From NCBI GenBank assembly GCA_014381755.1, contig JACNLB010000081.1, positions 1 through 56,590 on the forward strand: a stretch of 56,590 nucleotides of DNA. The letters run 5' to 3'. This document shows, in pieces, positions 48,908 to 52,541 of this stretch; positions within the stretch are counted from its first letter, which is position 1, and each line of letters starts with the position of its first letter. The translations under genes were made by a program, and so were the position numbers. The notes under the pieces are model-generated. The model searched no databases. It was given only the letters and a program-made list of their open reading frames with translations, and had not been told where the DNA came from. This DNA is from Fidelibacterota bacterium. Lineage in GTDB: Bacteria > Fidelibacterota > Marinisomatia > Marinisomatales > TCS55.

Positions 48908-51009
<2,102 letters not shown>

Positions 51010-51057: not shown

Positions 51058-51151
51058 GGAGAGGTGGCCGAGCTGGCTGAAGGCGCTCGCCTGCTAAGTG
51101 AGTAATCGGGGATAACCTGGTTCGAGGGTTCGAATCCCTCCCTCTCCGCCA
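51058..51151 (+). tRNA. tRNA-Ser (anticodon GCU), CCA encoded
   Basis: Class II tRNA of 94 nt. Acceptor stem GGAGAGG (51058-51064) pairs with CCTCTCC (51141-51147), followed by discriminator G and CCA (51149-51151). The D arm contains TGGCCGAGCTGGCTGAAGG. The anticodon stem CTCGC/GTGAG encloses CTGCTAA with anticodon GCT, reading AGC and AGU. A long variable arm and the T arm with GGTTCGAATCC complete it. Its last 14 nt are repeated downstream as part of a 46-bp direct repeat. Confidence 0.97.
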
Positions 51152-51183
51152 ACCTGCGTCCCGACAAAGTCGGGATCTTCGGT
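51138..51183 (+). repeat. 46-bp direct repeat, copy 1 (tRNA 3' end plus trailer)
   Basis: It covers the last 14 nt of the tRNA-Ser gene (including CCA) and 32 nt of trailer, with a CCCGAC/GTCGGG hairpin at 51160-51174. Copy 2 at 51629-51674 differs at one position only (C at 51153, T at 51644). The offset between copies is 491 bp. Looks like a target-site or attachment-site duplication. Confidence 0.92.
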
Positions 51184-51302
51184 TGGCTGGCCAACTGCGT
51201 ATTCCTTTTTGGGATAGATGGTTGACGTGCTAACAAACAGCAACCGAAGGCAGTACAAGTAGGTCGGCTAGTTAATGAACAATCTTCAGTTAATTAGCCG
51301 AC
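51177..51302 (+). ncRNA. Structured non-coding leader of the GIY-YIG unit (hypothetical)
   Basis: Two nested or adjacent hairpins are visible. CTTCGGTTG-CTG (51177-51189, one bulge) pairs with CAGCAACCGAAG (51238-51249), enclosing a GTTGGC/GCCAAC hairpin (51182-51195), an alternative fold. A 13-bp stem, 51263-51275 with 51290-51302 (one G-U pair), closes a 14-nt loop. No reading frame is supported here on the plus strand. It could be a functional RNA or recombination structure; nothing proves transcription beyond read-through from the tRNA. Confidence 0.35.
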
Positions 51303-51335
51303 TATATTTATAACCCGTATTATAATGGAGTTGGT

Positions 51336-51578
51336 ATGTGGTATGTATATGCATTGGAAAATAAAAAGAAGAATTTTATTTATATCGGTTATACAAATGA
51401 TTTAAAGCGACGAATAAGAGAACATTTTGATGGTAAAACTCAATCGACTAAAGCGTATCTCCCTTTAAGATTAAGTGCTTATATCGCAGTAACAACAGAG
51501 CAAAAAGCTAAACGTTTGGAAAAATATTTTAAAACAGGATCAGGAAAAACGATCCTGAAGAAGAGAATCATCCAATAA
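51336..51578 (+). CDS. GIY-YIG (URI-type) nuclease domain protein
   Basis: An 80-residue protein made only of the GIY-YIG fold: MWYVYALENKKKNFIYIGYT holds the two motif halves (YVY and YIG), then NDLKRRIREH with the catalytic Arg, and a helix with KAKRLEKYFKTGSGK giving the usual Glu. Such small proteins (also named UvrC-like endonucleases) are frequent in FCB genomes. An ORF-near GGAG and ATG at 51336 are present. It lies between the repeated tRNA 3' ends, so it is the likely enzyme of the element; homing activity has not been shown for this form, to my knowledge. Confidence 0.88.
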   Translation: MWYVYALENKKKNFIYIGYTNDLKRRIREHFDGKTQSTKAYLPLRLSAYIAVTTEQKAKRLEKYFKTGSGKTILKKRIIQ

Positions 51579-51628
51579 AAATATTAGAGTGAGAATCCAG
51601 GCCAAACGAAGGCATAGCGCAGTTTGGT

Positions 51629-51674
51629 CTCCCTCTCCGCCAATCTGCGTCCCGACAAAGTCGGGATCTTCGGT
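51629..51674 (+). repeat. 46-bp direct repeat, copy 2 (tRNA-Ser 3' fragment)
   Basis: It repeats the tRNA 3' terminal 14 nt, CCA and trailer of 51138-51183 with one substitution. Sequence upstream (51602-51627) does not continue the tRNA but forms a small CCAAAC/GTTTGG hairpin. Therefore this is only a 3' fragment and not a second tRNA gene. Confidence 0.92.
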
Positions 51675-51684
51675 AGACTCCGCT

Positions 51685-51712
51685 AAAAACCCCGCATTGC
51701 GGGGTTTTTTAT
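51685..51712 (+). terminator. Strong Rho-independent terminator
   Basis: AAAAACCCCGC (51685-51695), a 3-nt loop ATT and GCGGGGTTTTTT (51699-51710) form a GC-rich stem with a U-run. It follows copy 2 of the repeat and was most likely the terminator of the tRNA-Ser gene before the insertion. Confidence 0.93.
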
Positions 51713-52051: not shown

Positions 52052-52079
52052 CATAATAAATTCCTGCGTAATATTGTCC

Positions 52080-52541
52080 ATGAATGATCTGCGCTTAAAC
52101 AAGATTTCAGAATCAAATGAGTTGGAATTCTATTCCGCAGAAACGTCAACGGACCTAAAAATCCCCCTTTTTGAATCCAAAGTCAGCGCGGGATTTCCCT
52201 CGCCGGCAGATGATTATCTCGATCTGCCCATTGACCTGAATGAATTTCTCATCAAGCATCCCGCTGCCACATTTTATGTCCGCGTGAAAGGAGATTCCAT
52301 GGAAGGGGCCGGGATACAGAATGGAGATTTGCTTATCGTGGATCGCGCTGAAGAGCCACGAAGTAATAGCATTGTTCTGGGCGTTATTGACGGTGATTTC
52401 ACTGTGAAACGCATTCGGAAAAAAAGCGGCGAGTTATACCTCTTGCCCGATAATCCGGATTACAAACCAATCAAGATTGATGACAATATGGACTTCCAAG
52501 TGTGGGGGGTGGTAACCTACGTAGTCCATAAGCCGGAATAA
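52080..52541 (+). CDS. umuD: DNA polymerase V autoproteolytic subunit UmuD
   Basis: LexA-like S24 self-cleaving protein that, after RecA-stimulated cleavage, joins UmuC in translesion synthesis. From the ATG at 52080 (TTG at 52074 is possible) the cleavage site is Ala37-Gly38 in SAGFPSP, the nucleophile Ser73 is in GDSMEG and the general base Lys110 in FTVKR. The 153 residues are complete. The last 236 bp are repeated exactly at 54996-55231. The natural partner umuC is 2.7 kb away because other genes intervene. Confidence 0.94.
   Translation: MNDLRLNKISESNELEFYSAETSTDLKIPLFESKVSAGFPSPADDYLDLPIDLNEFLIKHPAATFYVRVKGDSMEGAGIQNGDLLIVDRAEEPRSNSIVLGVIDGDFTVKRIRKKSGELYLLPDNPDYKPIKIDDNMDFQVWGVVTYVVHKPE
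52306..52541 (+). repeat. 236-bp exact direct repeat, copy 1 (umuD 3' end)
   Basis: It starts within codon 76 of umuD and ends exactly on the last base of its TAA. I compared it base by base with 54996-55231 and found no difference. Right of copy 1 lies the LVIVD gene, right of copy 2 lies umuC, each with a 2-nt spacer and ATG. Confidence 0.95.

Follow-up and report, generated by a model that had tools for sequence, protein, structure and literature searches.

The mORFs of fungal mitochondria, found in atp6 of Allomyces and in atp6, atp9, cox2 and nad3 of Glomus, bring along a substitute for the end of their host gene, and the native end is left behind downstream (PMC3630166). Their hosts are mitochondrial protein genes and the nucleases are mostly of the LAGLIDADG type (PMC3630166). 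Phages T4 and T6 encode SegB, a free-standing GIY-YIG homing endonuclease, in their tRNA gene region; the enzyme cleaves tRNA-containing DNA and causes the tRNA–segB segment to be amplified in tandem (PMC2988022, PMC13096335). In the mitochondria of fungi and sponges, repetitive or double hairpin elements occur as short dispersed palindromes, also within rRNA genes, and are suspected of mobility (PMC2800124).

The locus and the family reported here can be compared with each of them. As in the mORFs, an endonuclease ORF separates a new 3′ end from a displaced one and the host gene is still functional. In contrast to the mORFs, tRNA and tmRNA genes of bacteria serve as hosts, the nuclease is a GIY-YIG protein of 80 aa, hairpins are found in the tRNA loops of the displaced end, and a 5′-end version exists. 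As with SegB, a GIY-YIG nuclease is encoded beside tRNA genes. SegB, however, is phage-encoded, and the accessible parts of the SegB papers report neither a replacement tRNA end nor hairpin-marked remnants (PMC2988022, PMC13096335), whereas both features are present here. The dispersed palindromes of our genomes resemble the mitochondrial hairpin elements in their shortness and in their occurrence in rRNA genes (PMC2800124), but they are bacterial and their number goes with that of a nuclease family. We read the locus, with a probability of about 0.6, as a minimal selfish homing-type insertion element, which resides in tRNA and tmRNA genes and whose only gene encodes a small GIY-YIG nuclease.

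The window is the whole stretch of DNA that was analysed, 56,590 nucleotides (56.6 kb) from a draft genome (G000) of 2.19 Mb in 160 contigs; all of its features with a strand named here lie on the plus strand. An intact tRNA-Ser(GCU) gene is found at 51058–51151 (ARAGORN; Rfam, 55 bits) with its encoded CCA at 51149–51151. The left flank is dprA (49915–51009, Pfam DNA_processg_A), which served as the anchor for locating the same tRNA locus in relatives, and the right flank is a gene for an S24-type peptidase, LexA/UmuD-like (52074–52541, neighbour-gene domain search). The initial annotation had described a 46-bp repeat of the tRNA end with one mismatch, an 80-residue GIY-YIG gene between the copies, a structured leader and a terminator after copy 2, and all four are borne out. 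The repeat copies at 51138–51183 and 51629–51674 are identical in 45 of 46 positions (single mismatch C51153T; 491 bp from start to start). They are the sole ungapped 46-mer pair within 2 kb that reaches at least 45/46 in the entire window, and thus the repeat is not due to chance. The stand-alone nuclease gene occupies 51336–51578 (PF01541, 62 bits). The element leader in front of it (51152–51335) is strongly structured, with a folding energy of −71.7 kcal/mol (z = −6.4), and its hairpin GCCAACC/GGTTGGC (51148–51154/51181–51187) overlaps the CCA end of the tRNA. In the relatives L008, L009 and L050 this hairpin unit occurs in tandem. At these loci and at L010, arrays of about 40-bp hairpin units starting with GCCAAC are located between tRNA-Ser and the ORF, and the first unit pairs with the CCA end of the tRNA. 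The palindrome TCCCGACAAAGTCGGGA, which belongs to a dispersed palindrome family, is present at 51159–51175 and in a second copy at 51650–51666. An inverted repeat CCAAAC...GTTTGG takes the T-arm position of the displaced tRNA end (51602–51627); this hairpin is weak (z = −0.2) and among the weaker cases of the family. A terminator-type hairpin follows at 51685–51709. No intron family was detected in the window by Rfam and the ORF is intergenic, so it is not located inside an intron or intein.

The dprA–tRNA-Ser(GCU) locus is readable in 18 genomes. It is occupied in G000, G035 and G014. The same-genus genomes G036, G038 and G039 have an empty locus, as have other genomes of the family. The empty tRNA genes end with ...CTCCGC and lack an encoded CCA. 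In G036 and G038 a single tRNA 3′ end runs straight into the terminator, which is the empty site that the initial annotation had proposed to look for, and it agrees with the suggestion that this terminator fits the uninterrupted tRNA gene. Decayed states are observed too: G013 retains a degenerate element and G010 just the CCA and the leader hairpin. The empty junction CTCTCCGC|TAAAAA of G038 is the same as the junction behind copy 2 in G035. Thus the native end is marked by copy 2, and with the element comes a new tRNA end carrying the CCA that is absent from the empty sites; this stretch is too short for a phylogeny of its origin. From the G035 and G038 sequences, CTCCGC at 51678–51683, which abuts the terminator in the window, is probably what remains of the original tRNA end. 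The repeat had been described as 14 nt of tRNA plus 32 nt of trailer. Its extent is correct, but the 32 nt do not belong to the host, since the empty sites have neither them nor an encoded CCA. They are the start of the element leader. Copy 2 of the window, a tRNA 3′ end followed by a leader start, therefore resembles what is left of a second tandem unit; in G014 such a unit persists, with a truncated ORF. The comparison shows that the element sits at the tRNA 3′ end, with the cut-off native end downstream next to the native terminator. Because the element supplies a new 3′ end, here with the encoded CCA, the preceding tRNA gene remains whole.

The 3′ ends of tRNA genes and direct repeats are classic att sites, and the copies might be seen as attL and attR of an integrase island of which only a passenger gene is left over. 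We consider this very improbable. No integrase or transposase is present among the neighbour genes tested (IDH, Obg, DprA, the S24 peptidase and an LVIVD protein). The passenger gene invariably comes from one nuclease family, shares the strand of the tRNA and often follows it at a distance of 0–10 nt; moreover, there are 5′-end versions, and tRNA loops are the points at which the repeats are broken up. The island reading was dropped since no tyrosine or serine recombinase occurs in the neighbour genes tested and the element consists of one 80-aa ORF. An HUH Y1 transposase of the IS200/IS605 or RAYT/REP type is absent as well, the sole ORF of the element being the GIY-YIG gene.

The arrangement is not restricted to this locus. 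A search with the single protein gave matches in 16 of 40 genomes of the host family. With a profile of 39 relatives (A1), matches were obtained in 129 of 220 genomes, with up to 14 copies per genome; this survey covers one phylum, Marinimicrobia (Fidelibacterota), mostly as drafts. A same-strand tRNA or tmRNA gene lies within 500 bp in 108 of 131 sampled loci, upstream in 92 and downstream in 16, while none of the 131 lies beside an opposite-strand tRNA or tmRNA alone; 10 further loci are cut by contig ends. With about 40 tRNAs per 2-Mb genome, we estimate the chance adjacency of a random gene to a tRNA at around 1%. The ORF is located within 10 nt of the tRNA end in 37 of the 92 cases with the tRNA upstream. 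The isotypes hit include Ser, Leu, Gly, Pro, Asn, Ala, Met, Glu, Arg, Val, Asp and Lys, plus tmRNA. In the common form, an intact tRNA is followed by the ORF and a 3′ remnant. In the mirror-image form (Ser-GGA, Met-CAT and in part Asp-GTC), a 5′ remnant is followed by the ORF and the intact tRNA. The ORF is on the tRNA strand in both, and the remnant is the severed part of the tRNA. The arrangement thus recurs at about a dozen tRNA isotypes and tmRNA, together with its 5′-end mirror form, and a GIY-YIG gene with a repeated tRNA end and no integrase, which the initial annotation had suggested searching for at other tRNAs, is indeed found at many of them. The genome of the window itself has a second stand-alone GIY-YIG gene directly behind tRNA-Ser(CGA); its remaining two genes with a GIY-YIG domain have no tRNA nearby.

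A scan of genome contigs with the single protein gave only two close relatives, and the viral contigs scanned with the one protein gave nothing. No match to the nuclease family was found in phages. Plasmids yielded only distant relatives; those inspected, which are related to UPF0213 and SLX1, are in ordinary gene neighbourhoods away from tRNAs, unlike the family described here. One of them, on a plasmid of Azospirillum lipoferum (L195), is a stand-alone GIY-YIG gene between sufB and sufC. Near-identical ORFs at L024 (G014) and L052 (G104) were considered as a transfer across families. This was rejected, since an identity of 88.7% runs along the whole stretch compared, and the contig G104:C190 is therefore probably contamination or misbinned, matching G014 of the other family. 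We found no paper on the nuclease or the insert family in the open-access literature, subscription journals being outside that search; judged from this literature, the family is apparently undescribed.

The displaced tRNA parts were each aligned with the corresponding tRNA, long gaps being permitted. They carry inserts that fold into hairpins, or palindromes replacing whole arms, at the tRNA loops. Among 64 distinct remnant inserts, 20 are exactly at GGTTC|GA of the T-loop and several more are at most 2 bases off; others fall in the D-loop or the anticodon loop. The T-arm is palindromic, with TTC|GAA at its centre. A signature search blind to position, for a T-arm split by a palindrome, was run over the 220 genomes and returned 37 places in 18 genomes, against 0 control hits. 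An intact same-strand tRNA stands in front of 30 of the 33 distinct places, and nearly all have the acceptor end of that tRNA. The clearest exception is L162 (tRNA-Arg), where an apparently older acceptor sequence is retained. The nuclease family is present in 17 of the 18 genomes with T-loop hairpin remnants (Fisher p = 0.0008). About half of the places have just a short gap instead of an ORF. The loci without the nuclease (L158, L162, L164, L168, L172, L199, L200, L203, L213, L214, L217 and L219) have at least one duplicated 3′ end with a T-loop hairpin, 8–182 bp past the intact tRNA. L203 belongs to the window's own genome (G000:C78:20160). L172 is especially clean, with a tandem duplicate of the tRNA-Pro 3′ end and trailer and the palindrome in copy 2 only. 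Since the ORF-less duplications match many local tRNA isotypes, duplication in situ instead of a travelling element is suggested in those cases.

A mechanism can be proposed in which the nuclease would cut an empty tRNA gene inside one arm, most often in the T-loop at GGTTC|GA, and the break would be repaired from an occupied copy. The recipient would then consist of the 5′ part, the new 3′ part with ORF and hairpin, and the displaced native 3′ part. The hairpin would mark the junction of the displaced end and disrupt the target sequence there. The new 3′ flank may hide the intact tRNA copy and, together with the hairpin, would spare occupied alleles from cutting; because the intact tRNA copy still holds a T-arm, self-protection must depend on the flanking sequence. 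In many copies the start codon is 0–10 nt past the tRNA, so tRNA 3′ processing would release a nearly leaderless mRNA, for which the tRNA promoter may be used. Repeated break repair at one and the same tRNA may give rise to tandem arrays and to scars without an ORF. Support for such cutting and repair is provided by other systems, namely the tandem amplification by SegB and the gene-end replacement by mORFs. Cleavage and transposition, and with them the term "self-contained mobile unit", are what we infer from the arrangement of the sequences. To be noted, the empty sites could instead be precise losses.

Full tandem units are found at L029, L104 and L143, and G041, a single-contig genome, has four ORF copies on a 692-bp repeat behind tRNA-Asp. 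The phylogeny of the nuclease, built on 74 columns, follows tRNA identity better than host family: the anticodon label changes 39 times on the tree (shuffled mean 93.7, minimum 87), and the host family changes 59 times (80 when shuffled). In G035, copies of one subfamily are located at two tRNA-Ser genes, Ser-GCU and Ser-CGA. At most sites in the family, ORF and DprA have diverged at a similar rate, which implies that the insertions are old and turnover is slow. Active mobility is therefore slow or old, most copies having diverged at the vertical pace, and the equal divergence of ORF and DprA fits old insertions that were kept vertically with losses. The initial annotation had named, as speaking against insertion, the case that all relatives carry the gene and both repeats at this locus with vertical divergence. 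Occupancy is patchy (G000, G035 and G014 against empty relatives), and the pace of the ORF is near that of dprA at most sites, with tmRNA as the clear exception. The two checks proposed there, for empty sites and for the arrangement at other tRNAs, both turned out in its favour. At tmRNA the ORFs of G014 and G022, which are of different genera, share 87% aa identity compared with 62% for DprA and 59% for MnmA, whereas G014 and G013 of the same genus share 73% for the tmRNA ORF and 88% for DprA. MnmA, encoded on the same contig as the tmRNA element, was taken as the host marker and shows that the contig truly belongs to the genus of G022 (78–88%); the PatB neighbour of L039 is uninformative. 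This comparison points to one clear horizontal transfer, in which the tmRNA element crossed genera, and it is consistent with cutting of an empty allele and copying into it.

The same data bear on a different explanation, that the ORF is a vertically inherited host gene with a cell role such as tRNA-gene maintenance or DNA repair, co-transcribed with the tRNA by happenstance, the repeats being by-products of local duplication. The vertical pace of the ORF speaks for it, and so does strong purifying selection: dN/dS of the family ORFs is 0.05–0.21 (0.21 for the window ORF against the G035 copy), which shows that the protein is kept functional. In addition, at the tRNA-Leu(CAG) locus the ORF persists in G027 (L021) and G021 (L068) where the tRNA gene is lost. 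However, the gene is patchy within one genus with clean empty sites, several copies per genome occur at unrelated tRNAs, there are tandem arrays and decayed copies, broken ORFs among them, and the tmRNA element was transferred between genera. A host gene of this kind is thus improbable, in our judgement, and the reading as a homing-type insertion is preferred.

Another objection concerns the protein itself. It is a bare GIY-YIG domain and keeps the catalytic residues: Y5, G18 and E62 are invariant and Y16 is nearly so in a 39-row alignment. With Seg-type homing endonucleases it shares the conserved catalytic residues, a location outside introns and inteins, and occupied and empty alleles at one locus. 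Unlike them, its sequence is not closest to I-TevI or Seg and the C-terminal DNA-binding part of the Seg/I-TevI kind is absent. The best sequence matches among solved structures are UPF0213 (YhbQ-like; 1zg2, E 4e-16) and SLX1 (7wme, E 4e-7), which score far above I-TevI (0.009); 1ywl and 7cq2 are also among the top-scoring structures. SLX1 works with a partner. Against the homing reading, then, the protein is nearer to the structure-specific UPF0213/SLX1 nucleases than to I-TevI and has no separate DNA-binding domain to recognise one tRNA.

This likeness suggests a two-part hairpin transposition, which is unlikely but keeps some weight. Here an SLX1-like structure-specific GIY-YIG nuclease would open DNA hairpins or cruciforms, and short palindromes (TCCCGA..TCGGGA and others) would be its mobile non-coding partners, inserting at hairpin tips. 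The arms of tRNAs would be such tips, and only insertions with a spare tRNA end would survive. Palindromes of the window type (TCCCGA..TCGGGA) are dispersed across these genomes, and in G062 they are found at helix tips of RNase P RNA (L225, rnpB) and 23S rRNA (L226). A flanking stem of at least 6 bp is present at 11 of 62 dispersed palindromes where 1.5 are expected; about half of these cases belong to repeated families, several being copies of a single repeat, so there are fewer independent events. The number of palindromes correlates with the number of GIY-YIG copies per genome (rho 0.68, 198 genomes; a first sample of 38 genomes had given a higher rho, 0.89), and the within-family partial r is 0.51, reached in 0 of 2000 permutations. 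The presence of the nuclease in 17 of the 18 genomes with T-loop remnants is in agreement with this. But this is correlation only, and it vanishes in families f16 and f29. G048 has 35 palindromes and no gene, whereas G057 and G058 have the gene and no palindromes.

The nuclease has a sister clade (L037, L066, L086, L099, L111 and L154) whose members bear terminal inverted repeats of 12–17 bp with the consensus CACCCCGTGAAATA and measure about 300 bp in total. They interrupt protein genes: twice a four-helix-bundle gene, at almost identical positions, twice an integron-type integrase, and a HepT-like gene (gene names assigned by eye from the flanking frames). Hairpin transposition was retained as an alternative because of the UPF0213/SLX1 likeness, the palindromes at helix tips, the copy-number correlation and this sister clade. 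Taken further, it would define a new class of mobile DNA, a tentative and rather doubtful proposal, in which small SLX1/UPF0213-like GIY-YIG nucleases read hairpins instead of sequence, and palindromic hairpin elements are carried by them to the tips of other hairpins. The form with the ORF would survive at tRNA genes by bringing a spare end, ORF-less palindromes would reside in rRNA, RNase P RNA and intergenic hairpins, and the sister clade would be a transposon of about 300 bp with terminal inverted repeats.

If the preferred reading as a homing-type insertion element is right, these elements would be among the smallest autonomous-looking mobile elements of bacteria, with 0.3–0.7 kb and one 80-aa gene. 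They would use tRNA genes without an integrase and keep an essential gene working via the end that they carry. About every second genome sampled in the phylum would carry them, and they would account for duplicated, hairpin-broken tRNA ends which are missed by routine annotation. The nuclease would also be a candidate enzyme, open to test, for the way in which dispersed palindromic repeats spread, a question raised in mitochondria as well as in bacteria.
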